From: Parasphingorhabdus litoris DSM 22379
Lineage (GTDB): Bacteria > Pseudomonadota > Alphaproteobacteria > Sphingomonadales > Sphingomonadaceae
Assembly: GCF_020906275.1 (NCBI RefSeq)
Contig: NZ_CP086727.1
Location: forward strand, 1,054,001 to 1,118,000
Length of the DNA stretch: 64,000 bases
Direction: 5' to 3'
Part shown: positions 12,818-50,094 of the stretch, in pieces
Position numbering within the stretch: position 1 is the stretch's first letter
How the letters are laid out: every line of letters begins with the position of its first letter
The notes under the pieces: generated by a model
The model's input: only the letters and a program-made list of their open reading frames with translations
Told to the model about the DNA's origin: nothing
Databases searched by the model: none
Made by a program: the position numbers and the translations under genes

Positions 12818-12845
12818 GGTGAGCCCGTATCGAAATTAAAGATAA

Positions 12846-12942
12846 GCCCTCTGTATTCGTTTTTGAATACAGAGGGCCCATATTCCTCGCGTCGCGTATC
12901 GAGGAAGGGGACCGTGGTCGCAAGCTCCGGTCCCCGTTTCTT
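12846..12942 (+). terminator. Two consecutive terminator hairpins
   Basis: A perfect 13-bp stem GCCCTCTGTATTC / GAATACAGAGGGC (12846-12877) is followed by a second stem GGGGACCG / CGGTCCCC (12907-12935) with TTTCTTTT after it. They close the glycine-zipper gene and separate it from the convergent cytochrome operon. Confidence 0.8.
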
Positions 12943-12962: not shown

Positions 12963-15900
12963 TCATCGGCGCGCCAGCATCGGCGGTACCGGGCCAATCC
13001 AGTCCGACAGATCAACCTCGTCTTTCACAAAATATGGCTTGCCCTTGCTGTTGAGATAAAAGCGCTGCATTTCGCTGCGATTAAAGGGCCGGGAGCCCAG
13101 GCGGCCGAACACAGCCATCTGACCGCCAGTCTCATCGACAGCGCGGTCTCGATCCAGTCCTTTGGACAAAGCCAAAGCCGGTTTCGGTGTGCGGGCAAAG
13201 GCGATAAGTTCCGGCATGGGCGGCGGTGAGAAGCCATAATAATTGGGTTGGCTATCCGGCGACGTCAGCTGAATGACCTTCAGGCCATTGCGGCCATCCG
13301 CGACATAGGCAAACAGTGTGGCGTTGGTCGAGCCGACAATGACATCTTCTGCGTCATTCATCTGGCCACCAAATGTTTCCTTGCGATAAATAACCGGTGC
13401 TTCCGGGTTCGTAATATTGGCGATCACCAATCCTTGGTCTTTCGCAGCGATATAGGCATATGTACGGGCCAGATAGAGGCGTCGGGCATTGTTCAGAGCT
13501 ATTGTGCCGGACTCGACCGGAACCGGGTTTTCCATATCCGTTACATCGAACAGTTTCACGCCATCGACATCGGTGACCCAGAGATAGCGGAATTGCAGGG
13601 CAGAAGCACGCGCGTCCGTCATTGGTATGGTCACAACATGGCGTGGTTGGAGCGGATCATTCAGATCAATGACGACCAGTCCGCTTGCTGCAGTAATATA
13701 GGCATAATGGCCCGCCAGTGTAATATGCTTGGCACCGTTCAAGACGCCGTCCGCATTCCAGGTAACTGCCCGTTTGAAGAAGTTATTGCGGAACTCGCCA
13801 TCGGCCAGCGTGTTGATGTCGACAAGGATCAAGCCTTCTTCACTGTCGGTAATGACCGCATAGTTATAAATCGGGTGAAAAGCCTGTTCTTCGTTAATCT
13901 CACGCAGCTCTGCCGTGTTGCGTTCCGGTGCAATTGGCTGATTGGTGGAAAGTGCCATGCAGGTAGCGTTCTTGGTGTCGACATGTGTGTCATGGCCCAA
14001 AGAGGAGAAGGGTGCTTTGACGATCCGTTCGGAAAAGCCCTTGTTGCCGATTGAGGCAACGTCATAGGCGCGGAAGCCCCCTTTGCCTTCTGCGACAAAC
14101 ATATATTCGCCGCGCAGCTGCAGACAGCGGACGGCATCACCAGTACCCTGAACAACATTCGCAAATTCTTCGAGCGCTTTGGTTTCACCCGAAAGGTCAC
14201 CATCAAAACGGTCGCCGCGGACCCAGTTGATCAGCTCGCGGCCATTGTCCTCGACATGCATCCGCCAATAATCTGGATAGGCATATTTCTGGAGGTAAGA
14301 ACCGATGACAGCTTGCGGTTCGTCCCATTCGGTTACGCGGACGGCTTCGAAGCCTTTTTCCAGTCCGACCCAGGCATGCAGGCCGACAAAGTTCACGAAA
14401 TTCGTACCCTGGAGCAATAGCTGCGACATGATGGCATTATTGTCATTGGCTTCGCTTAAGTGACAATCGGAGCACTGCTTTGTTTCGGTTTTGCGGACCG
14501 TGTGCGGGAAGTGGGGTGCAAAGGCCTGGCTGGAGAAGCCGATGGCCGAGATTGGTGGCTGCTGCACATAGATGCGTTCGCGGTTGATGTTGGTGGAGGA
14601 AAGCACCAGCGCTGAGGTAGACCGCACTGGCGCGATAATGCTGCCCTTGGTGGTCTGGTGGCGGCCGAGCTGGAACATCTGATCGCGGGCAACTTGCGGG
14701 TTATATGTCGCATAGTTACGCGTGGTGCCGCCTTCATATTTGTGGCTTTCCGTTTGCCAATTGGCCTCAATCGGCAAGTGGCAACCGCCGCAACTGGTGG
14801 TCCAGCTCAAGTGGCAGGTAAAGCATACCATATTCTCGTCTTTATGCGCTCTGTCGGCGGCCGGAACTCCGCTGCCAAAACTGTACTTCCCGGTTTCCGC
14901 ACCGGTTTTCGACATCAGCTTGGCCCGCGCGGATTTCAGGTTAAAGTCGGGATGTGAACGATCCACGCTGTCTTTGACCAGGCTGACCCGCCAGCTGAGC
15001 TTTGGATCGAGAAGAGAGCGCTGTATCAATACCCGGTTGCCATTTGGATCCGTGAACCATTCAAACCGGCGTTGACCGTCAGGATTACGCAGCAGAGCCA
15101 GGTTCTTACCCTTTGGCCGGGCCGCCAGATTGGATGTCATCAGCGTTGGATAGGCATCAGCGGTGCCGTGGCAGTCCTTACAACTGATTTCGACGGCATT
15201 AGCGACCTCTCCATAGATCAGGCCATTGCCGTGGCTGTCCTGTGCGAAGTGGCAGTCCGCACATTGCATGCCCACCTCGGCGTGGATGCTCATCATATGG
15301 ACGGATTTACCAGGGTTGATTCCGGGTTCGACGAATTTCTCTTCATCCTCTCGGCGGAATTTCTCTGGATCATCATTCTCGACAATGTCGCCATCTTCAT
15401 CAAGCAGATTGCCATCCCGGTCTCGTTTCAGAATCGCGCGGAAATTCCAGCCGTGACCATGATAGTCGGCAAATTGCGTGTCTTTGGCCTCACTATTGAG
15501 GTCATAAACGTTGCGCAGGAAATCGAGATCACCCCACAGTCCCTTGGGTGAAGCGGCCTCGGGATTGCGGTCCAGCACCTTGCGGACTTCTTCGGCATCT
15601 GGATATTTCTGTTGCTTGTAGGTTTTCTGATATTCCTCGTCGCTCATACCCTCTGGGCGCGGCGTAGTATTATTCGGTCCGGGCCACATGAGCGGCGCAT
15701 CGGATTCATAATCCCACATGGTATAGCCGAGGAAGCTGTTCAGGAAGATATTGGGTTGGTGCATGTGGCAATTCATGCATTGCGCGGTTGGGATGGCGCG
15801 GGTGAATGCATGCTGGATCGGATGGCCTTTTTCACGTTTTGCCGGATCTATATCGCCGCTGTGATCATCCGAATGACCATCATCATGCGCATCCCCATGA

Positions 15901-17123
15901 TATCCGGCTTTCTTGCCGGATTTGTCTTTTTTCTCATAGGTGGCATCATACGTGCCGTAACTGCCCACCCGATGCTCGCCCTCTTTCAGATTGCGGATCG
16001 TGGGATCTTTGGTCTGGGTCTGTCCATCGCGGCCATATTTGGCCCAGGTCAGACTGTGACGTGGTTCGCGGTCATTGGCATAGACGACATGGCAACTGGC
16101 ACAACCGGACTGGCGATAGTCACCTGGCTGGTCGTTGGTGCCCATGAACCAGGTAAAGGGGTCGTTGAGCCGTGTTTTATGGATGTTGAGCGCCGGGATA
16201 GCGACACGCAGTCCTGTTCCTGGACCGCGGTTGGACTGTTTCAGGTCGGGGCGGCCAGGTTCCTCGAGCCGCTGGATAATACCTCCGATATTGGGCAGAC
16301 CGATTTCAGGGAATTGCGTGTTGATATTGCGGCCGCCACGTTCAAATACGCGAAATACATCGCCGGGCGGTATCGTATGCCAGGTGGGCAGGGGATAGAG
16401 AATGGGCAGGGCACCGCGCTTCTTCTGCTCTTCTGTTACCGTGCCGTGCGGGTTGCCCGGTGACTTGATCGTCGCGGGCAGGCCCTTGCGGGTATAGGCT
16501 TCGCCAAAGATGTAATTTTTGAAGGGTACGATGCCGTTATTATAGGCCGCGCCGCCCCACAGCATGGCGCCGGTTGCCATCAAGGATCGTTCGGACGCTT
16601 CGATAATTTCCATATGGCAAGCACCGCAAGCCTCGCGCGCAACGCGATAGTCGGACGGGTTGACGAAGCGGACAAATTCCGGGGATTCCTTGTTGAGCAA
16701 TGTGTAGCTGCGCTTCGGATTGGCGGACGAAGGCCAGTGCCAGCTCTTTGGATATTTGGGGAGGACATGCGCCTTTTTCAGCGCATACATATATTGCGGG
16801 CTTTTCTTGCCCCACGCATTGTCGCCATTGACGCTTGCATCACCGCCATGACAGTCGACACAGCCTAAAACCACCGCTGGCGTTTCGTGCATGGTTTTCT
16901 GGTCGCTGTCGGTATGACAGGAAATACAGCCGGTGCTTTTGGCATTGGCCGCGTCCCATGTCTGGTTCTGCGGCGCTGGCGGTGTGAATGTATAGTCAAT
17001 CTTCTGCGGCTTTTCCTTTCCAGCAGCCAACAGCGCTGGCGTGCCTGCGACGCTCAGTCCAGCAACACCAAGTCCAGCTATGACAAAGCGCCTATATCGG
17101 GAGAGGAGATTGAGAAACTGCAT
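12963..17123 (-). CDS. Decaheme c-type cytochrome fused to LVIVD beta-propeller
   Basis: 1386 residues from MQFLNLLSRY, which has a signal peptide (ending ALLAAG). Ten CXXCH heme-binding motifs occur between about residues 64 and 883: CISCH, CVDCH, CGACH, CASCH, CMNCH, CADCH, CKDCH, CFTCH, CGGCH, CSDCH. A His/Asp-rich insert (HDDGHSDDHSGD) lies between the fourth and fifth. From about residue 1000 to 1290 the chain carries LVIVD-type propeller repeats (YAYIAAKDQGLVIANI, YAYITAASGLVVIDL). The protein should be exported and heme-loaded. It is the last gene of the operon, one base after the beta-barrel stop codon, implying translational coupling. Function in electron transfer is inferred; the fusion is unusual. 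Confidence 0.9.
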   Translation of the reverse strand: MQFLNLLSRYRRFVIAGLGVAGLSVAGTPALLAAGKEKPQKIDYTFTPPAPQNQTWDAANAKSTGCISCHTDSDQKTMHETPAVVLGCVDCHGGDASVNGDNAWGKKSPQYMYALKKAHVLPKYPKSWHWPSSANPKRSYTLLNKESPEFVRFVNPSDYRVAREACGACHMEIIEASERSLMATGAMLWGGAAYNNGIVPFKNYIFGEAYTRKGLPATIKSPGNPHGTVTEEQKKRGALPILYPLPTWHTIPPGDVFRVFERGGRNINTQFPEIGLPNIGGIIQRLEEPGRPDLKQSNRGPGTGLRVAIPALNIHKTRLNDPFTWFMGTNDQPGDYRQSGCASCHVVYANDREPRHSLTWAKYGRDGQTQTKDPTIRNLKEGEHRVGSYGTYDATYEKKDKSGKKAGYHGDAHDDGHSDDHSGDIDPAKREKGHPIQHAFTRAIPTAQCMNCHMHQPNIFLNSFLGYTMWDYESDAPLMWPGPNNTTPRPEGMSDEEYQKTYKQQKYPDAEEVRKVLDRNPEAASPKGLWGDLDFLRNVYDLNSEAKDTQFADYHGHGWNFRAILKRDRDGNLLDEDGDIVENDDPEKFRREDEEKFVEPGINPGKSVHMMSIHAEVGMQCADCHFAQDSHGNGLIYGEVANAVEISCKDCHGTADAYPTLMTSNLAARPKGKNLALLRNPDGQRRFEWFTDPNGNRVLIQRSLLDPKLSWRVSLVKDSVDRSHPDFNLKSARAKLMSKTGAETGKYSFGSGVPAADRAHKDENMVCFTCHLSWTTSCGGCHLPIEANWQTESHKYEGGTTRNYATYNPQVARDQMFQLGRHQTTKGSIIAPVRSTSALVLSSTNINRERIYVQQPPISAIGFSSQAFAPHFPHTVRKTETKQCSDCHLSEANDNNAIMSQLLLQGTNFVNFVGLHAWVGLEKGFEAVRVTEWDEPQAVIGSYLQKYAYPDYWRMHVEDNGRELINWVRGDRFDGDLSGETKALEEFANVVQGTGDAVRCLQLRGEYMFVAEGKGGFRAYDVASIGNKGFSERIVKAPFSSLGHDTHVDTKNATCMALSTNQPIAPERNTAELREINEEQAFHPIYNYAVITDSEEGLILVDINTLADGEFRNNFFKRAVTWNADGVLNGAKHITLAGHYAYITAASGLVVIDLNDPLQPRHVVTIPMTDARASALQFRYLWVTDVDGVKLFDVTDMENPVPVESGTIALNNARRLYLARTYAYIAAKDQGLVIANITNPEAPVIYRKETFGGQMNDAEDVIVGSTNATLFAYVADGRNGLKVIQLTSPDSQPNYYGFSPPPMPELIAFARTPKPALALSKGLDRDRAVDETGGQMAVFGRLGSRPFNRSEMQRFYLNSKGKPYFVKDEVDLSDWIGPVPPMLARR

Positions 17124-17124
17124 A

Positions 17125-19233
17125 TCAGAAGGCCAGTATCGCGTTGAAAAGAATGGAATAATGGAAATCACGTTTGTCCGTCTGATCGAATAAATCTTCG
17201 AAACCTTTGCCGGGGAGCAGCGCAGCACCGGATAAGCGGAAAACGATGTTCTGATTGGCGTTGGGGCGGTAAATGGCCGCCGCTGAAAGGTCCCAACCGA
17301 TATCCTTTGGTATTGATCCCTCAACGCGCAGCGCTTCTAGGCTTTCAATTTTGTGGAACCAGAGATGATTGGCATTGGCGGACAGACGGAAATCCGGTGT
17401 GAGGTCCGCGTCCACGCCGACGCCTGCCAATATCGTGCCGGGGTTGTTAAAGTTGCTTTGGCCCTGTTCCTTCGATGATCGAAGGGAGTTAAGGATGCCA
17501 TTTCGGCCATTAATGCTGATTGCGCGCCCGCCGCCCGCAAAGGGAATAGTCTGCCGGATCCAGTAGCTGGTGTCGGCGCCGGCAAAGATCGGGTTCTCAA
17601 AAATCGCGTCAAACCCGGCTTCGGTATTATTGTAAGGATTGCCGTCACCGCTGGCGAACAGACCGGATGCCCGAAAGCGCAGGAAGTCGACATCATAGCT
17701 GGCCTCTGCTGCTGCAAAATAGGCGGCGATCCTGGCCGGTTCACTAGTAAAGATGCTGTTGCGATCTTCACCGAAAGCACCATAAATCTGACCGGTTACG
17801 TTGATCCGACCGATACGGCCATCGACCGCATAGCCGGGATATACAACATCGTAGGCCCGGCCCCGCAAATCACCAATCAGCGCAGGGCGAACCGGAAAGC
17901 CGTTATCGTCAATCTCGATATCGTTCTTTTCGCGGTTCATATTATAGGTGACGCTGAACTGGCTGGTCAGCCCGACAAATGGCAAATCCTGACGATAGAG
18001 ATTGGCGAAGAAAATATAGCTATCGCGTGGTGTCTGAGTGATATCGTTAAGGCCGCTATTGGTGTCTTTTTCCAGCTGCACAAAGGCGCCAAGATTATAT
18101 TGAACGCGGTTATTGTCGCGCGTGCCGAACAAGCGGAAACCCAACTGGTTATCCTGGAACAGGAAGCCGCGGAAATCAGCTTGCATCGGCTGGATACCTA
18201 TGCGGAAACTGTCGAAGTCATAACGCGCTGAGGTGTTGCGGATGTGATAGTCGAAAAACGCCTCCTGCACGCCGACAAACCAGTCGGTGCGGTTGGAGGT
18301 TTTTGAAGGTTCGACAAACAGCACGCGGCGTTCCGGAACGTTCACATGGTTGATCTGTGTAGCCAGCGTCAGGCGATACTCGACATCAGGTGGCTTATAA
18401 GCAGTTGAACCTTTGATCAGCGCCACGCCGGTGATGAAAGTCTGCGCATAGACTTCGGAACCCGATCGGCCGAACACGTCGATGCTATTGTCTCGCTCTG
18501 TCGTTTGCACGCCAACCGGGATCGGGAAGCTGCGCGGTTCGATCACTGTGTCGGAAATCGCGTTGACGACAAAGAACCAGTCGTCGCCCTTCAGGAAGGA
18601 TGGTTTCTTGTCTGCTGGTATCGGCTTGTCGCCCTTTAGCACATTTTGCGCATAGGGGTTGGATGTATTGCTGCAATTATTTTTCAGCGCGCCGAAAACT
18701 TTATAGATCGACTGATCACCGCCCTTTTGCGGGCATAGCGTTTGCAATATCCGCCAGCGGTCGGGAACGGGAAACTCGTCGGTAGGGAAAGCTTCTGGTG
18801 GTGGAGCGCTGACCGCACCGGGATTATTCTGAGTCACACGGTCCGGCAGTTCCTTGGGAACACCCGGACGGCGGCGGCCATCAATCAGCGCTTCGTCAGC
18901 ATCAAGGCCGTCAAAATCCATTTCCAGCTGTTCTGGCTGGGCAACCTCGGGTTCCGTTGTCGCCGAGGCTGCAGCGGGTGGTTCGGCTGCTTTGACTACG
19001 GCCTCTTCTTCAGGATCGGGCCCGTCGACGCCCAACATGCCTGCGCCTGCGTCTATCTCGGCGAGATCAAAATCCGAATTTTCGACGCGCATCCAGTCAA
19101 ACTGTTCGCTCGCCAACAAAGCGGTGAGCGATGTCTCCATTTCCTCAATGGATAGCCGCTGTGCCTCCATCTGTTCGGCTTGACCCGACATCACCGTCAT
19201 AATTGGCAGGAAAGAGGAGGATAGCGCCGACAC
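17125..19233 (-). CDS. Outer-membrane beta-barrel, porin-like partner of multiheme cytochrome
   Basis: 702 residues. From about residue 190 to the end the sequence alternates like beta-strands with aromatic girdles (FFVVNAISDTVIEP, WFVGVQEAFFDYHIRN, VQYNLGAFVQLEKD) and finishes ILFNAILAF with a terminal Phe, the outer-membrane assembly signal. The first 130 residues are acidic and Pro/Ala-rich. The only available start is a GTG five bases after the upstream stop codon, and the N-terminus lacks basic residues, so its signal peptide is atypical. Between heme proteins in an operon, it could form the sheath through which electrons cross the outer membrane, as MtrB does, but sequence similarity to MtrB is not evident. 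Confidence 0.75.
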   Translation of the reverse strand: MSALSSSFLPIMTVMSGQAEQMEAQRLSIEEMETSLTALLASEQFDWMRVENSDFDLAEIDAGAGMLGVDGPDPEEEAVVKAAEPPAAASATTEPEVAQPEQLEMDFDGLDADEALIDGRRRPGVPKELPDRVTQNNPGAVSAPPPEAFPTDEFPVPDRWRILQTLCPQKGGDQSIYKVFGALKNNCSNTSNPYAQNVLKGDKPIPADKKPSFLKGDDWFFVVNAISDTVIEPRSFPIPVGVQTTERDNSIDVFGRSGSEVYAQTFITGVALIKGSTAYKPPDVEYRLTLATQINHVNVPERRVLFVEPSKTSNRTDWFVGVQEAFFDYHIRNTSARYDFDSFRIGIQPMQADFRGFLFQDNQLGFRLFGTRDNNRVQYNLGAFVQLEKDTNSGLNDITQTPRDSYIFFANLYRQDLPFVGLTSQFSVTYNMNREKNDIEIDDNGFPVRPALIGDLRGRAYDVVYPGYAVDGRIGRINVTGQIYGAFGEDRNSIFTSEPARIAAYFAAAEASYDVDFLRFRASGLFASGDGNPYNNTEAGFDAIFENPIFAGADTSYWIRQTIPFAGGGRAISINGRNGILNSLRSSKEQGQSNFNNPGTILAGVGVDADLTPDFRLSANANHLWFHKIESLEALRVEGSIPKDIGWDLSAAAIYRPNANQNIVFRLSGAALLPGKGFEDLFDQTDKRDFHYSILFNAILAF

Positions 19234-19238
19234 GTGCT

Positions 19239-21239
19239 TTACAACCCCTCACAAACATTTTGGTCGTCAGTGTCGAGAAACGGCGCAAACGGGCAATTTA
19301 CATAGCGCAAACGCACCTGCGCATCGCCAAGATCAACGACGACGTTATCAGCGCGAATGGCCTTGGGCGCATTGCCAATGCCGCCAACGCGCAAGCCAGC
19401 ATTGTGCAGACCAAGGAAGCTGATCATGTCGTCCTGATCAATACCATCGCCGGATACACCAAGACCCCCGACAAGCTGATCACCTCGATAGATTGGAACG
19501 CTGCCGGGGAAAATCTGGATGCCATTTTCAAGCCGATTCTGTCCTGCTGCGGCATCCGGCGTGTTGGTGCAGCGCATCGGTGTGTCGGTTGGCGAAGCAC
19601 CGGTTACAAAGGCCAGATGCTGGCCGAGATTGGGAAAGATCAAGGCTGCTTGCAGACCGGTTGCCAATGGATTGAAGTCCGCGATCGGACGCGATAGCGG
19701 TCCGGGGGGACGCCCCAGTTCGCCGTCGGGAAAGTAAGGTCGAGCGAGATTACCACCGGACCGATCCGCAAAGGCGACCGTGCCTGTTAGCGCATTGGGA
19801 TCATTCAGGAACGTGCGAACGCGCTGTACAAAGGCAGCAACATCGGTATCGGGATTGCCCAGCAGATCGGATGCCGCAGCGCTGTTGGAAAAAAACGAAG
19901 CCGTGCGAGCCTTTTGCAGCGAGACATCGGTACCGAAAATCGGAGCATCGGGCGACCGGACAATCCCAAGTATTTCGCCATGCGTATCGACGATGGAAAT
20001 GGACACCTGCGCGCGGCTGTCCAGCGGTTGCCGGATTTGCGCGCGCGCGCGGGACATGATGATGAACGCTTCTTCCAATATTGCCCGCGTCTCTGATTCG
20101 GTGAGCGGCGCTGCTACACTGGCACCGTCTGTCGCGGCGCGGATCGGGAAGCGGTTGGTGCCTGTGCCATCGGACAGTATAAAGGCATCGCGGTTCTGGA
20201 ACTCTGCTGCAGTTGATGCCCGGATCCCCGAACCTTCAGTGCCATAGGCTGTACCAGCTATGATCGCGCCAGCTGTGTAGCCGGTTACTGCAATCAGGTT
20301 GCCGGACGTGCCGTTAATGGCGGCAAAATTGTTTTGCAGCGGTGAAAGATCGCCGACGACCATATCACTAAAGCGCAAAGACGTGCCGTCCACCGATATT
20401 CGGTTGGCAGTGATCGCAGCAGGCGGCGCAAAGCCCTGAATACCGGCCAACGCAATGGCTTCCTCATCGTCGACATCGACATCGAGAATATTGGAATCAA
20501 AACCATAATCGCCGTCACCCATGACGCCGATCGCGCCGACGACGACACCGTTTTTATAGAGCGGCAAGCCGCCTGGGTCAGCCGATAATCCCAGCGGGGA
20601 ACGCTTTGGCCCGATCAGCGCAGCTGCACCGGCGTTGCCAAAGCGCTGGTTGAGATCCGAGCAAGGCAGCTGGCTGAACTGCACCCCAAAAAGCGGACCG
20701 CTTTCCAAGCCCGCCGCCGTTGGAGCGGGCGGAAAATGTTCCTGCACGATCTGGCTCGCCGTGCGGGTTGAAAAAGCATTGCCAGAGCTGGAGAGATAGG
20801 CGCCGGTTACCGCTTTGGCGATTGCTCCAGCTGCGGCAGGCACATCGACGCCCTGCACATCAATACCGGGACTGTTTATTGTTCCCAATGCCGTTCGAGC
20901 GCTAGTTGTTGCGACTGCGCGCGCACCGTTCATTTCAAATACGGCCAGAACATTGCCAACCCGATCTGTCACCGCGATGACAGAAGGGAGATTGCGCGCT
21001 GTCGCTTCGCCGACGGCTTGCGCTATGACGGTTTGCACATCGGTAACAGAAAGCGATTCTTGGGCGGGAGGGGCAAAAGCTCCCCCATTGCCATCAACTG
21101 GATTGGGCGTTGGTGTCGGTGTTGGCGCAGGAGCGGGCGATGGCGTACCACCAAAGTCATTGCTGCCGCCGCCGCCTCCACAAGAGGTCAGCACCAAGGC
21201 AGCCGCCGAAATCGCAGCGGTGAAACGAAACTTCCGCAT
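19239..21239 (-). CDS. Lipoprotein with two GlcG/HbpS-type domains
   Basis: 666 residues. The lipobox (LVLTSC followed by a Gly-rich run) and a Pro/Thr linker indicate anchoring to a membrane. Two GlcG/HbpS (DUF336) domains follow: the first at about residues 60-270 (LSVTDVQTVIAQAVGEA, VVGAIGVMGDGDYG), the second at about 375-640 (TESETRAILEEAFIIM, LVGGLGVSGDGIDQDD). Domains of this family bind heme or sense redox. Its start codon overlaps the stop of the cytochrome gene upstream (TAATG), so it belongs to the operon. A role in heme delivery or redox sensing for the complex is inference. Confidence 0.85.
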   Translation of the reverse strand: MRKFRFTAAISAAALVLTSCGGGGGSNDFGGTPSPAPAPTPTPTPNPVDGNGGAFAPPAQESLSVTDVQTVIAQAVGEATARNLPSVIAVTDRVGNVLAVFEMNGARAVATTSARTALGTINSPGIDVQGVDVPAAAGAIAKAVTGAYLSSSGNAFSTRTASQIVQEHFPPAPTAAGLESGPLFGVQFSQLPCSDLNQRFGNAGAAALIGPKRSPLGLSADPGGLPLYKNGVVVGAIGVMGDGDYGFDSNILDVDVDDEEAIALAGIQGFAPPAAITANRISVDGTSLRFSDMVVGDLSPLQNNFAAINGTSGNLIAVTGYTAGAIIAGTAYGTEGSGIRASTAAEFQNRDAFILSDGTGTNRFPIRAATDGASVAAPLTESETRAILEEAFIIMSRARAQIRQPLDSRAQVSISIVDTHGEILGIVRSPDAPIFGTDVSLQKARTASFFSNSAAASDLLGNPDTDVAAFVQRVRTFLNDPNALTGTVAFADRSGGNLARPYFPDGELGRPPGPLSRPIADFNPLATGLQAALIFPNLGQHLAFVTGASPTDTPMRCTNTPDAAAGQNRLENGIQIFPGSVPIYRGDQLVGGLGVSGDGIDQDDMISFLGLHNAGLRVGGIGNAPKAIRADNVVVDLGDAQVRLRYVNCPFAPFLDTDDQNVCEGL

Positions 21240-22645
21240 TATCGCAATGCCCTTATGGTTCTGACCGCACTGCCCAGCGCCCGGCGGAACTGCAGCGGCT
21301 TGTAGCTGTTGGGTTCATCGACGGCTTTATAGGCCACATTGATTTGGCCGCGCAGACTGGCGGCGGCAGATTCGCTAACCTGGCCGCTATTTACCAGCCC
21401 GTTGAGCAGGGTATCGATCGCCATGACCGCCTGTACGCTCCCCTCATAATCGGTGAAGCGCGGAGAGATCGCTTGTCCGGCAATGGTTTCCATGATCCGG
21501 AAGGTTTGATCCCGGCCAAAGCTGGCTCTGGAGAAGCGATCAGCCAGTGTCTGAGCCGTTTGACGCAATCGTGCTGCGGCTTGAACCGCTGGCGCCCGAC
21601 CTTTACCCATGGCCGCATGAAATGCCTTGGACCGGGCCTCAAATTGTGTAGCCAAATCCGGCGCGGCTACTTTAATGGCGGCGCTCAGCATGATCATATT
21701 CTCGTCATTATAAGGCGGCATGCCTTCTGGAATGGGACGACCGGGATTGTTGATTGATGTCGGACGCGCCGATGCGTCATCATAGATGCGGCGGTGGCAG
21801 CTATGGCAATCATAGAAATAGAATTCCGGGAAGAGACCTTCCTGAGCCAAGGCGGGTTTGGAAAAGAGATTGAGTGAGCGTTCCAGCGCCATAGATTGAC
21901 CGACGGCCCAGAAGCGGACGGCGTTGGTCTTCCCTTTGCGCCTGACATAATCCACATCTTCATCGTGATGCTGTTGCAAGGTGGAAAACAGGTCCAGCTC
22001 GAATGAGATGCGGGGATGGCCGGCCGCCATGATCCGGTGATCAACAAACTGGCCGTTCTTGGCGCTGCCAAAGTGACAATCGAGGCAATTGCTGGCGCGT
22101 GCCTTCGGATTTTCCAGCGGTGTCAGGCCCAGCGAAACATTTTTTGCGTGGTTTGCACCAACGGCATAGTGAGCGGATAGCCAGCCGGATGAAGGACCAT
22201 GGCAGGCCTCGCAGCCAACGCCGTCACTGAGTTGAAAACGAGGGCCTTTTTTTGCTGCCGGAGTGCTGTGGCAGCCCAGGCATTGTTCCGAAGAGGCGGC
22301 ATCCTTGATACCGAGGCGCTTGGCCATGGCGATGCTGCGCGGTTCGCGAAGAACGCGAAAGGCCCGGCTATGGGCGCCGCCGGGTGTTGATTCCTCTTGC
22401 CAGCGCATCAGTTCGTCCTGACGTACGATTTCGCCGTCAGCTTCCTGCCGGCCATGGCAAGTGGTGCTGCCGCAAGTCGCTACGCCCATATAGGTTCCGC
22501 TGGATAAATCCTGCGCTGCTTCGACAGGGGCAGGTGTTGCGACTGAAGATATGAAAAGAGCTACGCCGGCAAGCGCAAAGCAGAATAGGCTAGCGGCCAG
22601 CACGGACCAGCTATGTCTCCACGACAGAATTTTCCCCATTTGCAT
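21239..22645 (-). CDS. c554-like pentaheme cytochrome c
   Basis: 468 residues with an N-terminal membrane or signal segment (about 13-35). Heme motifs: an atypical CX4CH (C58-C63-H64), then CXXCH at C122, C145, C187 and C280. The order and spacing (LGIKDAASSEQCLGCHS, DGVGCEACHGPSSGW, CLDCHFG) fit the cytochrome c554 domain. The C-terminal 180 residues are helical and lack hemes. It is the first gene of the four-gene operon and has a ribosome binding site (AGGAAAAG). It probably moves electrons in the periplasm between the inner membrane and the decaheme/porin pair. Confidence 0.9.
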   Translation of the reverse strand: MQMGKILSWRHSWSVLAASLFCFALAGVALFISSVATPAPVEAAQDLSSGTYMGVATCGSTTCHGRQEADGEIVRQDELMRWQEESTPGGAHSRAFRVLREPRSIAMAKRLGIKDAASSEQCLGCHSTPAAKKGPRFQLSDGVGCEACHGPSSGWLSAHYAVGANHAKNVSLGLTPLENPKARASNCLDCHFGSAKNGQFVDHRIMAAGHPRISFELDLFSTLQQHHDEDVDYVRRKGKTNAVRFWAVGQSMALERSLNLFSKPALAQEGLFPEFYFYDCHSCHRRIYDDASARPTSINNPGRPIPEGMPPYNDENMIMLSAAIKVAAPDLATQFEARSKAFHAAMGKGRAPAVQAAARLRQTAQTLADRFSRASFGRDQTFRIMETIAGQAISPRFTDYEGSVQAVMAIDTLLNGLVNSGQVSESAAASLRGQINVAYKAVDEPNSYKPLQFRRALGSAVRTIRALR

Positions 22646-24335: not shown

Positions 24336-24346
24336 GATCTATCCTC

Positions 24347-25993: not shown

Positions 25994-26160
25994 GTGGGTC
26001 CTTTCCTGATCGATATGATCAGTAATTGCTCAAGTTTATGGCAACGACCCCGGAACGATTTTTCCCCTCCAGAAAAAGACTCATCCCTACCCCTATGCTG
26101 TTGGTTGATAAGTTAAATCTACATCCGTGTCACGTATCAATCGCAAAATTCCTGAAAGCT

Positions 26161-28680: not shown

Positions 28681-31600
28681 TCATTCCGCAGGTTCGAGTT
28701 CTTCATCCTCGGTGGGACCGCCCTGACCACAGGATTCATCCCCTTCGGCGCACTCGCCATTTTCCTCTTCTTCGCCAACCCACAGATCGTCATTGCCCGC
28801 ACCAGTAACCGGCTCGTCAATCAACGGATCATCCACATATTCCTCATTTTCCTTGAGTTCGATGAGATTTGTTTCGAACGGATCACTGACCACTGTGCCA
28901 TCTTCATTTGGTGTCACTTCCTCCTCAATGATATCCTGTACTGGATCGTCGATTTCCGGATCAGGAGATGGATCGGGTGTTGGCGTAGGTGTTGGCGTAG
29001 GTGTTGGTGTTGGAGTGGGGGTAGGCGTCGGTGTTGGAGTTGGAGTGGGCGTCGGAGTTGGCGCGCCACAGCTGGACGGATCGATTATTACGCAGCCATT
29101 TATTGTGGAAGCGTTGTCAAATCCAACCACAGTGTCTGTTGCGAAAATTGTGTCGATCCCGGTGTCTCCACCAACGATGCCATTGATGACAATATTCGCA
29201 TTGCTGCCTGCGCTAAGCCCATTGATGGTCAAACTGTCGACCGTGAAACCGCGGCGTTCACCAAAAGCGGTGCCAGGCGCTGTATTCTGAATGAACAGAT
29301 CACCATCGACCGCGAATTGCGCAATCCCGCCGCGGATCAAGCCACCGTCGAGATCGACGCCATCATTATTTTGCAGACGAAGATCGACAGCATCTACGCC
29401 AAGGCCTGCGATATCGGCAAAGGCCTGATCAGTCATGGCATAGATGTTTTGCGCCGTCAGCGTCATCAAACCAACACCACCAAAACCGCCATTGGTATCG
29501 GTAATCTGGATCAGACCGCCATTGGCATTAATCCTGAGATCATCAAGGGATGTCATGTTGAGCGTGGTGCCGCCAGATGCATTGGTCAGATTAAGATTGC
29601 CGTCGACCCTCGTGGATTGACCGGAATCAATCGTCAATGTGCCAGAGAAGCCAATATTGGCCGTTTGTGGTCCGCTGACATTGTCGCCCGCCTGCACCGT
29701 CAAATCCTGGATGATAAGATCAGGTGTTGAAAGGCCGGTCGACTGAACAAAAAATGTCAAATCCTGATTGGACTGGATCCGCGTAAATTCAAAATTGTCC
29801 AGAGTATAGCCACCAAGATCGGAGGCGCCGCCCAAAAGCGCCTGATTGGCCCCGTTGCTTTCAATGAAAATATCATTGGTCTGCGTAAATTCGCCAAGCT
29901 GTCCGGATGAACCAATATTGATATTGGCCGATGACAGGTCGATGGTCATTCCAGTCGCAAGCGCCTGAATATCGATCAGATTGCCAGCTGTGATGGTCAA
30001 AGCATTATTCGCGTTGACGGTATCATTGATCGCAACGTCAACCGCTGCCGTTACATCGATATTGCCATTGGCGCTTACGACGGCTTGGCCACTAATGCCT
30101 GCGGGCGAGTTGCCAGCGCCACTTCCAACGATAATGAGTTCGTTCAGTTCTGCGCTACCCGCCAAGCTTGTCAGCTGGATGTTGCCTGTTGCACTGGCAT
30201 CATCAACCACCAGGTTGCCTTGGGTAACAATATTTATATTCCCAGCATTGGCAGTGGCAATGACTCTCATCGCCCCATCGGACCTGAGAAACACGTTATT
30301 GCCGATGGCGCGGACTGTATTGGTGAGCATGGCATTGTCACGCACTGCTACATCCCCGTCAGAAGACCGCAACACCGCAGAACCACCGATCAACTCTCCA
30401 ATTTCAACGCCCAAATCAGCATCAAAATTGCTGCTGACAATTTCGGCGCTTGTGACATCGATCAGCCCATCAACAAATGCCCGGAACGTGCCGGCTGCGA
30501 CGGTCTCGGCGGTAAAGTTACCATCGGCCCGGACGCTAATGAAGGAATCGGACGTCACATTGCCAAAAATAACGGAACCGAGCGACCGCAAGTCCAGCCC
30601 AGAAGGTATTTTGCTGGTCACATCGACATCACCGAAGATAATGTCGCCGGAGGCGAAAAAGTCTCCGGTGCGCGAAATATCCAGATCGCCGCCGATATTG
30701 ATGTCTCCATCGAGCGCGCGAAGGCGCAGTCCTTCGGTAAACCGCAGATCACCATTGTCCCCGGTATCGGCACCGTTCAATGTTATTGATGTGCCCTCGA
30801 GGAAGGTTTCATTACCAGAGATTACGTTGCCAATGGACAGATTGCCGGTGCCTACAACCATGATCGTCGTACCGGCGGCGAGAATATCACCTGTGATATC
30901 GCTGCCGCTGAGGTCGAGCATATTTCCGGCATCCACAGATCCGAAGTCAATGAAATCGCCAGAGGAAAGAAATATATCAACGCCTGCGTCAATGCTGCCG
31001 ACTGTTATGTCGCCGCCGTTGATATCGATATTTTGTGCGCCGGACGTAGCGCCCAAGAAAACGGATCCAGGTGCGTCTAATATTATGTCGGAATCAGGCA
31101 CATTGATCTGATCAAAACTGAAATTGCCACCGGCATCATAGTTCACATCACCGACCCCAACCGTCAAAACGCCAACATTCATGCTGCCCGGGACCGAATA
31201 GAAGCCTTCCAATATATCGCCGCGCTCATTTACGGTGGTCAGCTCGCCGCCGGTATTGATAACAGCGGCGGATATATCACCGCCAACGGTGATACCTATG
31301 TCGTTTGCGCTATTGAGCGACCCTGAGCCCAACAAACTGCCGGCTGCTTCAATGCCAAGCAAGCCGCTGGTGAGCTCTGCATCGCGCAGGTTCACATTGC
31401 CTTCGGTGCTGTTTACGAAAATTTCGTCGCTGGCGATAAAGCGCGAGGGAATGCCGTCCGCGCCCATCACAAGATCACGGCGTGTCGATACCAATATCCG
31501 ATTGGCAATTATGTCGCCATTTTCAATAACCGCCTGAATTGGGACGCCAATCTGGCCGATTTCAACAATATTGTCCGCATCAAGCGCGCCAAGGCAGAGA

Positions 31601-34600
31601 TTGCCCTCTAAGCAGTCGTCGCTAAGCAAGCCATTATCATCGGACTGACCAATTGCTGCAATTACGGCATTGGAAGGCGCATCAATAATATCGGCTCTGA
31701 TGGAACTGGCTGCAATTGTTCCGCCAAGGCCGTCCATGGCATCGGCTGTCATCACCACTGCAAACTCATTCGCATCAATTGTGCCTGCTGCCACGATCGA
31801 GGCGATGGGTGTCAGCGGCGTTGAAATGAGATCAGGCACCAACCCGCCAGCCTGCAATATCAGGTTATTGGGGTTTTCAAACGGCGAACCCAAATTAGGT
31901 GTGTCCGCAGGATTGGCGGCTGCTTCCACGCGCGCACCGGTTTGTATGATGATATCATCACCTGTAGCGATAAAGAAGCCATTGTCGGATACGCTGGTGC
32001 TGCCCGTCTGGAAAATGGCGTTGCCCCCAGCCACGACCCGAATAGCACCTGTCGAGCTGACATCGCCTGTGATCGTAGCATCGAAGCTGGGATCATAGAC
32101 TGGTGTAGGCGTTGGTGTGGGATCAAGGCCCGCTTCAATGAAAATGCCCGAACTTACGATCAGACTTGCACCAATCGGCGATACTTCAGGTGGGCCGGTT
32201 ACAGAGCCGTCATTTAGCGTGACATTTTGTGCGGCCGTCAGATTAATGAGGCCATCGGCGCGCAAATCATTGGCAAAGATATTCGCGCCTGCATTTACAT
32301 CGATGCTGGTGCCCGATTGGAGGATAGATCCCGCCATGCTGTTAAAGTCGAGCGCCGCGTCGGCATTAAAATCGGAAACCACATCGATGGATATGATCGA
32401 CGCCGCGTTGTTGGTGTGATCCACCAGGATCGATCCCAAATTTGAACGCAAATCGGCGAAACCACCAACTGTCAGCTGTCCGGTGCCATCAAAGTCATAT
32501 TCTATATTGCCGGCAACATCGACGTTCAAATCGCCCAGGACAGTTATGGCTCCGCTATTGCCGCTCATGAAAAAGCCGCTGGAAGGTCCTATGCCTGCCA
32601 AAGCTTCGGCGTTCAAAGAGCCAAGCGTTATCAGGCCAGCTGGATCAATTGATGTGTCGGTAATCTCGATCCGGCCGCCTATGCCGGTAGCAATGGATCC
32701 GTCTCCGAAATTCAATCCGTTAGCCAATAATGTGACGTTACCCAGCGTTAAAATGCCAGGGCTGCCTTCCTGAACTTCCAAAGCGGCGGTACCGCCAGTA
32801 CCGAAGCCGCCGGCACCATCAGTACCATATATGCCATTGCCCGGTAGTCCCAGTGCGCCGCGAAAGCCTGGATCACCACCTTGCCCGGTGGTGGTAATGG
32901 TTACGTCATTACCGGTAATCGTTCCGCCTTGCGCCAGCAGACGGGCAGTGCCGCCCGTTCCGTCACCGCCATCGCCACCATTTCCGCTGTTACCGCCATA
33001 TGAATAGCCGCCCGTTCCGCCTTGGCCGCCAGTACCAGTGCTAGAGAGTGTAAATTCAGGACCGCCACTAAGCGCAAAACTGGCACCTGTTCGAACCGCA
33101 ATTTCCAATGTGCCACCAGTCGCTGAACCGCCATCACCACCATCGCCACCATTGCTACCGAAAATCCCAAAGCCGGGACCACCAGCGCCGCCAAAGCCAT
33201 CGGCAGAGCTAAAAAGAGGGTCGCCGACATTGGTCAAAGATGCACCTGCGCCAACAATTTCGAGCCGCGCGACGCCGCCCTGTGCATCACCGCCATTGCC
33301 ACCATCGCCAGGCGCGGTGCGAGCGATACCGCCAATACCACCGGTTCCCGTTGCCGTGATGATCGGACTTTCTAGCGTTACAGCGGAGCCAGTAATATTA
33401 AGTACGGCAGTGCCCCCGATACCTGAGCCAGCATTGCCGCCGTTATTACCTTCACCGCCTTTTGCTCCAACTCCGCGCGCATCAACCACGTAGATCCGGT
33501 TGACGGCATCATCCTGCCGCAAGTTTATTGTAGCATTACCGCCTGTACCATTACCGCCACTGCCTGCAGACTGGCCGGTGAAGCCAACGGCCGGAGTAAC
33601 ACCGCCATAGGGGCCAATCCGGTCGGGTGCGTTGGGATCATTGCCGGCATCGCCGCCTGTTCCCACCGCTGAGACTTGTGTGGTGGTGAAGGTAACATCG
33701 CCGTTATTATTGTTGAAAACAGCGCTACCGGCTACCGCGTTACCGCCGTCGCCTGCTCTTTGCGACGGTGTCGGGGCACCCACCAAGGCATCACCGCCAC
33801 GGCCGCCTTCCGTACTTGCGGAAATTGAAGCAAGCTGAGCCGAAATCGTTGCCGTCCCATCCAGATTGAGCGTGGCAATGCCACCTAGTGAATCACCACC
33901 GCTTCCGGCATTAACGCCAGTGCCATCGCCGCCTCTGCCGCCAATGCCGCCAGAACTGATTTCCAAAGTGTTGTTGACCGTCAGGCTACCTGAATTGGCA
34001 TTGAAAGTGGCATTACCGGCGATACCAGATCCGCCATTGCCTGCATTTACACCTTCGGCATCTCTGGCATTACCGCCAGCCCCACCAATACCATCTGCGG
34101 ATACGGTAAGGTTGTTGACTGTCACATTGGCGCCGTCGAGATTGAAGACGACATTGCCGCCTTGTCCGTCACCACCATTTCCGACCACGCCGGGTGGTTG
34201 AGGAAATCCAAACGCCCCAGAATCACCGCCGAAAGAGGCGGTGCCGCCGGCCGAAACGGTCACGTCATTGGCAGAGAAATTTCCATCGACGAGATTGAAT
34301 ATCGTCTGGCCCCCGACTCCATTGCCGCCATTGCCGCGGATGGCGATTGGAACTTCCGAAAAATCGTTAATAGACCCATTGGCAGCGGCAAAGAAATTCT
34401 CGGCTGAGAACGTACCGCCATTGTTGAGGGTTAGCGTCAAATTGCCGCCAACACCGAGGCCGCGTTCCGCAGCCAGACCATCAGCGGCATTGCCGCGTCC
34501 GGAACCATTGGCTGACAGACTGACAGAAGGCGGGCTGGAAGAACCGTTAAAGGGACCATCGACAAGGTCGATTGTCCCGCCATCGACGTTTATTATGATG

Positions 34601-37164: not shown

Positions 37165-37179
37165 TCGCCGCCTTCTCGC

Positions 37180-38970
37180 TTATCGCGACCATGGTGCGAG
37201 TTGCACCGTCAGCGTCATCAACGCCCGCGCGCTGTCGCGCCGGGTCTGGAAAGGTCCGCGTTTCAGCGGCACCACCGCCATTACGTCCAGGCTGGCCTGG
37301 CGGCCGATGGTTGCGCGGATACCGCCACCAGCGGAGTAAATTTTTTGGGGATCGCCGGGGAAATTCTTGTTCCACACCGCCATCGCATCAAAATAGACAT
37401 AGGGTTGCCAGGCTGTCCCATTGGGTGACTCTGGTATCAGAGAGCCGTAACTCACCTCGGTCTGTAAGCCGTAGCCGCTATCACCGATGATGGTCCCTGG
37501 GTCATAGCCCCGACCGGTCGTGTAGTTACCGCCGGAAATTTCTTCATATGAAAAAAGGGCGTCGGGAGAATATTGAAACCGCGGCTTCAAGGTAAACGCG
37601 AGCAGCGGGGTAGGGCGATAGTCAAGCTTCGCCTCGCCGCGGACGACAAAGGCCGTGGGATCGCCATCCGCGCGGGTCGGAATGACGGTTTGGCCAATAC
37701 AGCGCACAAAGGCTGGACCACATCCCTCGCTAGCGCCCAATATGCCTAGTCCTTGGCGCAATTCCAGCGATCCGGCCATGGCCCATTTGGGCTCGAACGC
37801 GGAATAGCCACCACGTCCGGAGATACTGCCTGCCTCAATTTCGCTGAAGTCGAGACGGGCATAAGCGATGCTCAGATCATCCTCATTGGTTCGCGTGCCC
37901 AAGATTTCGGTTTTCTGGTCAATATATTCAAAGCCGATCGTCCCGAACAGATTGCGGGTCTGTTTGCGGATAAAGGGATATGTCGCGTAAACACCAGCGA
38001 CTAAGGTTTCTGACTCAATGTCAAAATTGTTCGGGAGATCAGGATCCGTCCACGCATAGGTGAAATTACCGCCAAAGCGCAGGCCCTCGCCGCCGACCCG
38101 AAATTCATGACTGGCTTGCAATACCTGTTGCTCACTAAAGTCAGCCGTTGAATAAGCGCTGACCGTCGTTTCATCGCCAAGACCGGTAATGCCGTTGAAA
38201 CGCGCCCGAACCAGCCCGCCAAATCGGCCGACCTGTTTGGAACCGAAATTCTGAATATTGGCATCCACATAGACAGGTGTCCGGACAACGTTGAATTCGC
38301 CAATCACATCGCCGGGGCGACCATCTGCACTAGAGGTTACCGGACGCAATGATAGGCGCACATCCAGTCCGGGAATATCGCGGGCAAGCAGCAAATAGCG
38401 CTCGGCCACATCGATGTTGAAAACAGGTTCGCTGGTGAGCCGATCGATATATTGCTGCAACAGTTTTTCGGATGATCCAGCGTCTCCCCGCACCTGAACA
38501 GATGTCATTCGGGCAAGCAGAACATCAAATTTGACATTGCCGCCTTCGATCGTTTGCGGCGGTACTTGCACGGCAGCAAGATAGCCGGCTCCACGAAGGA
38601 TGGTGGCAGCGCGATCACGGATTTCGCAAACCACGGCGACGGACACTTCCTGATCAACATAACCGGTATAGGCCGATCGCAATATCGATGCGTCGACCAC
38701 GCCCAATCCGCTAAAGTCCACCGATTGCAGCGTGAATTTCACATCAGCAAATTCCGGGCTGGCAAGCGGACAAGCTGATCGCTCAATGCCGCCCTCCACC
38801 GTGAGCGGTTGCGCTTGGCCTTTTTCAGCTTCGCCCAGCAACCCTCGCTGAATTTCCTCTCGCGTGGGGGCGGCTATGGATGATTGTGCCCAAACATTGC
38901 TATGAGCCGCCAGAATGACGGGTGCAGATATTAATAATCCCAATTTTCTTGTTGCGCGCGCTCGCGACAT
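37180..38970 (-). CDS. TpsB-type outer-membrane transporter (ShlB/FhaC family)
   Basis: 596 residues. A signal peptide (ending NVWAQ) is followed by two POTRA domains to about residue 220 (DFSGLGVVDASILRSAYTGYVDQEVS, VQVPPQTIEGGNVKFDV). A 16-strand beta-barrel follows with the family hallmark TTGRGYDPGTIIGDSGYG (RGY plus DxG). It exports the TpsA adhesin encoded immediately downstream. Compared with FhaC the length is standard. It lies 105 bases after the FecR-like gene, beyond a hairpin, and probably has extra transcriptional control. Confidence 0.93.
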   Translation of the reverse strand: MSRARATRKLGLLISAPVILAAHSNVWAQSSIAAPTREEIQRGLLGEAEKGQAQPLTVEGGIERSACPLASPEFADVKFTLQSVDFSGLGVVDASILRSAYTGYVDQEVSVAVVCEIRDRAATILRGAGYLAAVQVPPQTIEGGNVKFDVLLARMTSVQVRGDAGSSEKLLQQYIDRLTSEPVFNIDVAERYLLLARDIPGLDVRLSLRPVTSSADGRPGDVIGEFNVVRTPVYVDANIQNFGSKQVGRFGGLVRARFNGITGLGDETTVSAYSTADFSEQQVLQASHEFRVGGEGLRFGGNFTYAWTDPDLPNNFDIESETLVAGVYATYPFIRKQTRNLFGTIGFEYIDQKTEILGTRTNEDDLSIAYARLDFSEIEAGSISGRGGYSAFEPKWAMAGSLELRQGLGILGASEGCGPAFVRCIGQTVIPTRADGDPTAFVVRGEAKLDYRPTPLLAFTLKPRFQYSPDALFSYEEISGGNYTTGRGYDPGTIIGDSGYGLQTEVSYGSLIPESPNGTAWQPYVYFDAMAVWNKNFPGDPQKIYSAGGGIRATIGRQASLDVMAVVPLKRGPFQTRRDSARALMTLTVQLAPWSR

Positions 38971-39030
38971 ATTCTTCCCCGGTTTTTCATATTTCCCGCG
39001 CGACCCCGTATGGAAATATGTATTTTTAGC

Positions 39031-39062
39031 TTCACGCCTCGACCCTCACCTCAAGGCGTGAA
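39031..39062. terminator. Perfect 9-bp hairpin between FecR-like gene and tpsB
   Basis: TTCACGCCT (39031-39039) and AGGCGTGAA (39054-39062) with a 14-base loop. On the minus strand no T-run follows. It may act as a partial terminator or processing site that separates expression of the regulatory genes from the secretion pair. Confidence 0.5.
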
Positions 39063-39075
39063 ACCTTGTCTTTAA

Positions 39076-39879
39076 CTAGCTTTGTTCTTCATTTGCCGAT
39101 GAACCGTCATCCAGTGTTTCGACCAACAGATCGAGCTGGCTTTGACAGCCATTGGCGATCAAGGCAGATGCCGCATCGTTGAGATTTTCTGGTGCTTCCT
39201 TGAGCATCACGAAGTTAACCTCCACAGATTTCTCAACATTGGATCCGATGACCCGATAGCTGGCACCATCGGCCAAAGGCGCTTCGGCTTTTGGCCAGCT
39301 TTTCAGCGGATTGCCTTTCCGCCAAGCCACTTCCGTAACGGTGCCGTTGACCGGTTCGACGATGCTGGCAGTTGCCGATCCGGTATAGTCCGGACGCCAA
39401 AGCACCAATGTATTGGGATCTGAAACACAGAATTTTCCGCCCTTCGTGACGTCCAAATACCAAAGATTCGGGTTTTTCGGCGTAACACTGGTTTCCGTAA
39501 CGCCTGCGCTGCGGACGGCTCCGGTTCTGGCCCGGCTTCTCCCGCGATTGTTGATAAAGCTGGAAAGGCGGGTTGAGCTGCTCGACTGACGTGTTGCTCC
39601 GCTATTTAGGGAGAATGTGCCAGGGCCCTTAATCACACGTGTGCCGTTTTTGCCAAGGATTGTGATCCGATCGAGTTTTTTCAGCGTCACCTGCGCATTG
39701 TTGGGAAGCTTCTTCCCTGCAGGATAGGATTTTGCCGACGGTCCGGTGGAACGCACGATCATATTCTGGGCGATTGCTGTGCCAGTCATTCCAACAAGTA
39801 GGAACGCGCCAAACGCAGCTTTACCCAGTTTTCCTAGTTTTTTTCCAGATCCGGGCGATTTCAAATCAACCGAGTGCAT
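39076..39879 (-). CDS. Exported FecR-like protein of the TPS/CHAT operon
   Basis: 267 residues from MHSVDLKS, chosen because GGAG lies directly before it; an ATG 12 bases earlier is possible. A hydrophobic segment (AAFGAFLLVGMTGTAIAQ) is a signal peptide. Residues about 35-90 (VRSTGPSAKSYPAGKKL, DRITILGKNGTRVIKGPGTF) match the FecR-type beta domain, which in other systems relays signals across the periplasm. The middle is Ser/Arg-rich; the C-terminal part is unrecognised. Its 5' end overlaps the cyclase gene by 14 bases, so it is part of the operon. Confidence 0.75.
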   Translation of the reverse strand: MHSVDLKSPGSGKKLGKLGKAAFGAFLLVGMTGTAIAQNMIVRSTGPSAKSYPAGKKLPNNAQVTLKKLDRITILGKNGTRVIKGPGTFSLNSGATRQSSSSTRLSSFINNRGRSRARTGAVRSAGVTETSVTPKNPNLWYLDVTKGGKFCVSDPNTLVLWRPDYTGSATASIVEPVNGTVTEVAWRKGNPLKSWPKAEAPLADGASYRVIGSNVEKSVEVNFVMLKEAPENLNDAASALIANGCQSQLDLLVETLDDGSSANEEQS

Positions 39880-47763: not shown

Positions 47764-47844
47764 AGAAGCTGATAGCCATAAGCGGAAACCTGAAGTGAAT
47801 CAAAGGTCTAAATTCCACCTTTTTGCTAGGAATATCGTTGCCGC

Positions 47845-49965: not shown

Positions 49966-49972
49966 CAATGAC

Positions 49973-49992: not shown

Positions 49993-50094
49993 CAAAATGC
50001 GAGAGGCAATTTCGCCTGTTCAATGATCAGCCCTCCTCTTGAACCGAAGGAGGCTATATGATCGATAACCTGTGAACCCGAAATGAAGGAGTTT

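Follow-up and report, generated by a model that had tools for sequence, protein, structure and literature searches.

The closest described relatives of the system reported here are PCC3 and PCC4, two types of putative porin-cytochrome cluster whose membrane proteins combine five hydrophobic segments with two WX3HX13H motifs and an SGXXG motif, a signature likened by He et al. to a two-b-heme ferric reductase domain (He et al. 2017, PMC5566968). We analyzed a 64,000-nucleotide stretch of Parasphingorhabdus litoris DSM 22379 (NZ_CP086727.1, positions 1,054,001 to 1,118,000; hereafter the window), in which four genes on the minus strand encode, in this order, a c554-type cytochrome, an HbpS lipoprotein, an outer-membrane beta-barrel and a decaheme cytochrome. 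The four genes belong to a real, conserved and very widespread system, half of which had been seen in a first-pass annotation made from the sequence alone. It is probable, though far from assured, that they make up the outer half of an electron-transfer chain of seven proteins that spans the envelope, with an inner half related to PCC4, a different outer half and gating by cyclic nucleotide (cNMP). The operon reads as follows.

21239..22645, minus strand: c554-type cytochrome of 468 amino acids (aa), four CXXCH motifs and one CX4CH (Pfam Cytochrome_C554, 1.2e-10)
19239..21239, minus strand: lipoprotein with HbpS/GlcG domains, 666 aa (Pfam HbpS-like, 6.1e-24, three matched stretches)
17125..19233, minus strand: outer-membrane beta-barrel, 702 aa, modeled with about 18 strands in an AlgE/OprD-like fold
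12963..17123, minus strand: decaheme c-type cytochrome, 1386 aa, with a likely signal peptide, ten CXXCH motifs and LVIVD repeats
12842..12881, minus strand: intrinsic-terminator-like stem of 17 pairs behind the decaheme gene, a consensus match only

The tight same-strand packing noted in the first-pass annotation holds, with an overlap of 1 base between the cytochrome and HbpS genes, a gap of 5 bases before the barrel gene and a gap of 1 base before the decaheme gene. Its GlcG/HbpS lipoprotein is likewise supported by the Pfam match and by a lipobox-like LTSC visible in the sequence, and its exported decaheme cytochrome by the ten CXXCH motifs and a signal-like N terminus. The decaheme reading frame as listed begins at TTG 17324; its start is likely ATG 17123, since a signal-like hydrophobic segment then sits at the N terminus. 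All ten CXXCH motifs are invariant across 71 aligned rows and are therefore not chance motifs. The C-terminal part of the same protein bears, unmentioned previously, LVIVD repeats (Pfam, 9e-14) predicted to form a propeller. As for the c554-like pentaheme cytochrome of the first-pass annotation, the c554 type stands and the count becomes four CXXCH motifs plus one CX4CH, the latter form being found in 13 of 17 aligned relatives; a hydrophobic segment at residues 14-32 indicates a protein that is exported or anchored by its N terminus. The barrel has no Pfam match at 0.01. Terminator-like sites were not enriched over shuffled sequence in the scan that gave the stem listed above (12 found, 12.1 expected).

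Scanning one genome per species for relatives of the decaheme protein gave 506 encoding stretches, and the best 80 of these were kept as loci, all sphingomonad by name except three named only Proteobacteria or Alphaproteobacteria (L024, L030 and L075). A search of other genomes for the same four-gene order, advised by the first-pass annotation, thereby found all four genes in the same order and on one strand in 73 of the 80; in the other seven, the retrieved piece begins inside the operon, cut by a contig end. Among a sample of 98 related genomes, the decaheme gene occurs in 42, namely P. litoris itself, 30 of the 31 others of the genus and 11 of the 27 others of the family, and in none of the 39 from other families of the order. 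The statement that such systems are not typical of sphingomonads is contradicted by these counts. Decaheme homologues extend to Halieaceae and Colwellia: a query with the Colwellia protein returned Colwellia, Thalassotalea, Haliea, Halioglobus and Kineobactrum among the matches listed, and over the aligned heme region rows taken from these matches share 62-68% identity with the window's protein (54% by tblastn for Colwellia echini). The system is therefore no sphingomonad oddity. In homologue searches, at least 6778 of 7997 and at least 7996 of 7998 scored candidates matched, and thus the decaheme family is large. In 17 distant loci, hand-picked among the strong matches of a class sample (385 Alphaproteobacteria) and a phylum sample (398 genomes, any match in 23, used only for choosing loci), the HbpS, barrel and decaheme genes are adjacent and in the same order throughout. 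Three weak matches retrieved alongside them (L161-L163) encode 12-heme proteins that we dropped as decaheme relatives, the similarity being confined to a local stretch at 23-29% identity. A gene for a small protein of about 140-220 aa (cluster cl7; L149:8076-8606) stands between the FHA cytochrome gene introduced below and the HbpS gene in six distant loci and has no counterpart at that place in the window's operon.

Taking the four genes as the whole system, as the first-pass annotation did, is not supported by comparison with other genomes, in which a further set of genes is contiguous with them. In P. litoris this inner half lies 93 kb from the operon (G000:C1:967634-973752, equal to L106:5635-11753). 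It comprises genes for an FAD/cNMP/4Fe-4S protein, a five-helix membrane protein and an FHA-anchored ten-heme cytochrome. The FAD protein matches Pfam Pyr_redox_2 (1.7e-30), two cNMP domains (1e-32) and the ferredoxin-type 4Fe-4S family Fer4_11 (PF13247, 3.9e-11), and motifs of the cNMP phosphate-binding type are present. In the membrane protein we found five hydrophobic segments together with SGXXG and two WX3HX13H motifs; the FHA cytochrome combines a single membrane segment with ten heme motifs. At other sphingomonad loci these genes mostly follow the decaheme gene on the other strand, together with a metallophosphoesterase gene; within the piece of DNA around the decaheme gene at each of the 80 loci, we found the FAD protein in 43, the membrane protein in 43, the FHA cytochrome in 45 and the metallophosphoesterase in 46. 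The membrane protein gene lies upstream, in the same orientation, in 14 of the 17 distant loci, and in C. echini all seven genes are consecutive on one strand, the FAD gene being cut by the end of the piece.

The two halves also occur together across genomes. At cut-offs set after the lists were seen (decaheme E<1e-60, membrane protein E<1e-50), the class sample contains 29 genomes that match the decaheme protein strongly; every one of them also matches the membrane protein strongly, and eight others have the membrane protein alone; weaker matches, in 6 of 35 genomes for the decaheme protein and 25 of 62 for the membrane protein, were dropped. Among the 98 relatives, 39 genomes have both, three only the decaheme protein and one only the membrane protein, all four exceptions being genomes less than 90% complete; six of the 46 genomes matching the membrane protein did so more weakly than 1e-50 and were not counted (G007, G042, G067, G073, G085 and G092). 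A gene of the CcmH/CycH type with tetratricopeptide repeats (TPR) is divergent from the FAD gene (L106:4360-5355, minus strand; Pfam 1.2e-25) and is also found on plasmid pMSHV of Sphingobium herbicidovorans and in 40 of the 80 loci, which links a gene for heme attachment to the chain. In one locus (L145), ccmF, ccmH and a CycH-type gene share a piece with the operon. With regard to cytochrome c maturation, which the first-pass annotation had wished to see checked, CcmF is present in the P. litoris genome, encoded elsewhere. The CcmH/CycH-type protein is itself a candidate for a dedicated heme-attachment helper.

The likeness to PCC4 is closest in the inner half. The five-helix membrane protein with its two WX3HX13H motifs and SGXXG is common to both, and the flavin and Fe-S (pfam13247) parts of the PCC4 redox protein are here united in one protein; the Fe-S gene is separate in Subgroup II (He et al. 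2017, PMC5566968). The PCC4 cytochromes with 4 and 10 motifs are matched here by the c554-type protein (four CXXCH plus CX4CH) and by the FHA-anchored ten-heme protein. Of the eight class-sample genomes with the membrane protein alone, four (L175-L178) hold clusters with heme counts of 4, 5 and 10, a porin of about 530 aa and homologous inner proteins; L175-L177 are complete, and L178 has no FAD gene within its piece. These are presumably the PCC4 of He et al., judging from heme counts and gene content as given in that paper. Their 4-CXXCH and ten-heme proteins are homologues of those of P. litoris, the former of the c554-type cytochrome of the operon. The differences lie mostly in the outer half. 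A five-heme cytochrome of about 600 aa is absent from the window's operon, the part that this search covered, and comparison of the decaheme profile with the five-heme profile gave a probability of 7.5% over 23 columns, both profiles being shallow. In place of the PCC4 porin of about 530 aa, P. litoris has the barrel of about 700 aa, the decaheme-LVIVD protein and the HbpS lipoprotein; barrel and porin profiles gave an hhalign probability of 0.4%, at Neff values (2.4 and 2.9) that leave room for very remote homology. Unlike in PCC4, the inner half here is 93 kb from the outer half.

PCC3 shares with this system an FAD protein and the HX13H membrane protein, the latter at 24-28% identity. The PCC3-type loci (L164-L167) encode a 21-heme cytochrome, a 19- to 33-heme cytochrome and another porin, as against 10, 5 and 10 motifs here; medians of 34 hemes for the extracellular and 21 for the periplasmic cytochrome are given for PCC3 (He et al. 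2017, PMC5566968). The barrel matches the PCC3-type porin with an hhalign probability of 1.7%, again with profiles of little depth. PCC4-type and decaheme-type rows interleave in the membrane-protein tree, of which we used only the interleaving, its deep forks being weak and its branches long; this is consistent with exchange of outer halves, and the inner half thus appears to be shared and the outer half exchanged between clusters.

Porin-cytochrome systems of better-known type resemble the locus in logic only. MtrCAB, MtoAB and PioAB likewise combine a barrel with a multiheme cytochrome, of ten hemes, yet we rejected membership in this group: there is no match to an MtrA/DmsE-family equivalog, none to MtrB/PioB in Pfam, and the barrel is modeled with about 18 strands. 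TIGR03508 was listed only for the pentaheme protein, at 20.9 of the required 192.2 bits. The earlier remark that none of the four proteins looks like a standard Mtr component accordingly stands, as judged by Pfam and NCBIfam. The Geobacter Pcc system (OmbB-OmaB-OmcB) was rejected on its heme counts, which differ (8 for the periplasmic and 12 for the outer-membrane cytochrome). ExtM, of the Geobacter ext selenite/tellurite operon, is the NCBIfam family that the decaheme protein matches best; membership was rejected at 61.5 bits against a cut-off of 800, the best stretch covering about 50 residues around heme motifs. In the literature searched, a scope that leaves aside supplementary tables, including those of He et al. 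and of MHCscan, which gives its clusters only in supplements (PMC11475568), we found no description of the gene set and no paper that couples LVIVD repeats with multiheme cytochromes.

A second group of genes, upstream of the operon on the same strand (28681-45060, minus), may tie the system to cyclic nucleotides.

41920..45060, minus strand: CHAT-TPR protein, head of the linked stretch (Pfam CHAT, 9.2e-50)
39866..41920, minus strand: CHASE2 sensor-nucleotide cyclase (Pfam CHASE2, 3.2e-31; Guanylate_cyc, 6.9e-14)
39076..39891, minus strand: small exported protein behind the cyclase, no Pfam match (FecR-like is a label given by eye)
37180..38970, minus strand: secretion barrel of the ShlB/FhaC type (TpsB; Pfam ShlB, 1.1e-18)
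28681..37164, minus strand: large exported repeat protein, 2827 aa, included by linkage

The cyclase is 46% identical to one adjoining the operon in 20 of the 80 loci, and the small exported protein is 38% identical to one encoded beside it in 19. On pMSHV, an unbroken run of genes leads from CHAT to decaheme, facing the inner module; the CHAT gene occupies the same place there, the counterpart of the TpsB barrel is 48% identical, and a relative of the 2827-aa protein, likely the partner of the TpsB-type barrel judging by linkage only, adjoins the cytochrome gene. A cyclase match (E<=1e-30) was found in 42 of the 42 decaheme genomes among the 98 relatives versus one of the 56 others, five of the 42 matches (G007, G033, G043, G045 and G053) being only 30-39% identical and possibly paralogues. 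Both best matches lie on one contig in 28 genomes, and 26 of these place the cyclase gene upstream on the same strand, with starts 8-36 kb apart. Furthermore, the phosphoesterase beside the inner half is nearest to cyclic nucleotide phosphodiesterases, at scores well below the cut-offs. Genes linked to both halves thus suggest control by cyclic nucleotide, and a nucleotide-gated chain is the natural inference from a linked cyclase together with a phosphodiesterase-like neighbor.

Considering these domains, motifs, gene orders and co-occurrences, all of which are read directly from the sequences, we infer a direction, donor, acceptor, mode of outer-membrane crossing and gating for the chain. 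In this model, NAD(P)H in the cytoplasm would reduce the FAD/4Fe-4S protein, and electrons would cross the inner membrane via two b-hemes predicted in the five-helix protein. The FHA-anchored ten-heme and the c554-type pentaheme cytochromes would then bridge the periplasm, and the decaheme-propeller protein, with the 18-strand barrel and the HbpS lipoprotein, would deliver electrons to an acceptor at or beyond the outer membrane. The linked CHASE2 cyclase would make a cyclic nucleotide that gates the chain by binding to both cNMP domains of the FAD protein, and the phosphodiesterase-like enzyme beside the inner half would remove the signal. Electron transfer across the inner membrane and the periplasm is well supported by the predicted anatomy, and a path from NAD(P)H to the periplasm is the simplest reading of the inner half. 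It is tentative, and somewhat doubtful in its entirety, that sphingomonads, Halieaceae and Colwellia-type bacteria commonly possess a cNMP-gated NAD(P)H export chain of about 25 c-hemes, with a propeller-bearing decaheme protein and an AlgE-like barrel, through which many supposed aerobic heterotrophs could shed electrons on command.

Several observations weigh against the envelope-spanning chain. The co-occurrence figures, for the 385 Alphaproteobacteria and the 98 relatives alike, are uncorrected for shared ancestry. Only 9 of the 17 distant pieces show the c554 gene, and 6 of these have it on the opposite strand; most of the distant loci therefore do not conserve the four-gene operon as such. 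The FHA domain match falls just under its cut-off, and cNMP binding and NAD(P)H use by the FAD protein are predictions at the level of domains. In four sampled genomes (L179-L182, of which L179 and L182 are short contigs), the membrane protein gene has no barrel gene or large outer-half multiheme gene in its piece. The weightiest point concerns the outer membrane. About 18 long strands, counted from the DSSP line, appear in the model of the barrel (mean pLDDT 72.3, with residues 48-156 in the N-terminal part unreliable), and a fold search returned AlgE first, followed by OprD/Occ channels. By the textbook barrel formula, 18 strands leave a free width of about 22-24 Å and 26 strands, the number in MtrB, 36-39 Å; the predicted width therefore argues against the barrel sheathing the decaheme protein as MtrB sheathes its cytochrome. 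One review gives a prediction of 28 strands for MtrB (PMC7096707). MtrB was not among the 50 fold matches listed for the barrel, which by itself does not exclude a likeness to it. Structure prediction, the check proposed earlier for barrel and decaheme together, thus bears on the barrel alone, the decaheme heme-domain model (mean pLDDT 50.6) being too poor to be used. Of the conduit role proposed in the first-pass annotation, what has gained is the tie to a trans-inner-membrane module with PCC3/PCC4 motifs, and what has lost is the Mtr-like sheath, for which the barrel is probably too narrow. The decaheme protein, in turn, has 139 residues per heme, with up to 175 residues between motifs, and is in this unlike a bare wire; its 62-68% identity to distant rows suggests an enzyme rather than a bare conductor. 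Spacing and conservation together leave a catalytic role open.

The same features are what one would expect if the barrel served as a substrate-selective channel and the decaheme-propeller protein were an oxidoreductase of the periplasm or cell surface that acts on a soluble substrate, with no electrons crossing the outer membrane. This explanation, which would account for the AlgE/OprD/OccK-like barrel of 18 strands, the many invariant decaheme residues outside the heme motifs and the wide heme spacing, we consider unlikely. No enzyme is named for the decaheme protein by Pfam, NCBIfam or sequence matches to solved structures, against which neither its profile nor that of the barrel gave a match; the inner half is common to PCC3- and PCC4-type clusters, which carry other porins; and the HbpS lipoprotein and linked secretion system point outward. 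As to the resemblance to the alginate exporter AlgE, identity is 11-14%, and no alginate gene was recognized among the conserved neighbor families checked. If, instead, the chain ran inward, oxidizing a donor outside the cell, for example Fe(II) or Mn(II), and feeding the quinone pool or NAD(P), it would agree with the direction hypothesized for PCC3 and PCC4 and with the Mn(II)-oxidizing Erythrobacter named as a PCC3 carrier (He et al., PMC5566968). The pyridine-nucleotide/FAD protein nevertheless favors NAD(P)H as donor. The named carriers, moreover, are mostly aerobic heterotrophs and not lithotrophs, which counts against an inward chain, and we regard this direction as quite improbable.

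A device for sensing and acquiring heme or iron, in which HbpS and the cytochromes sense or reduce ferric heme or iron outside the cell, the output being the cyclic nucleotide, would make sense of the HbpS domains and of the linked CHASE2 cyclase with its exported small protein. Such a role is very hard to reconcile with the cost of 25 c-hemes for assimilation and with the neighbor families present in at least 8 of the 80 loci, among which no TonB receptor or iron-uptake gene was recognized (ten further representatives of these families were checked, four of which had no Pfam name, and one family was left out). A soluble nitrogen or sulfur pathway of the hydroxylamine or tetrathionate type, named by the first-pass annotation as an outcome that would overturn its reading, finds a foothold in the partial c554 similarity of residues 83-168 (E 6.3e-05 to 1bvb). 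We rejected it as scarcely credible on the NCBIfam c554/CycA score (23.8 bits versus a cut-off of 400) and on the same neighbor families, among which no enzyme of that kind was recognized.

Should the envelope-spanning chain work in the proposed way, a great many marine and soil bacteria outside the iron and manganese specialists would possess extracellular electron transfer as a regulated side route, and one inner-membrane electron-entry module would be exchanging outer-membrane halves. Since carriers in culture include Sphingobium, Sphingomonas, Erythrobacter and Colwellia, the function of a PCC4-like cluster becomes directly testable.

Two of the loci without a barrel, L180 and L181, hold genes for the membrane protein, the FAD protein, the FHA cytochrome and the c554-type cytochrome; neither a barrel gene nor another large multiheme gene lies in the piece, and these two loci may possibly encode a chain without an outer-membrane part. 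The decaheme gene is also found on large plasmids, in 12 Sphingobium records and 1 Sphingopyxis record, examples being NZ_CP020539.1 (L168) and NZ_CP076395.1 (L169); 3 of 15 matched records, these two among them, are typed as conjugative, and therefore the system may move. In the window, the operon and the linked stretch are separated by a block on the minus strand (22899-28634) with genes for CysS, a 2-hydroxyacid dehydrogenase, an acetolactate synthase and an aldehyde dehydrogenase, possibly a lineage-specific insertion. On its other side, the linked stretch is adjoined by CobT- and CobS-like cobaltochelatase genes (45934-51084, minus strand), with a penicillin-binding protein gene between them.

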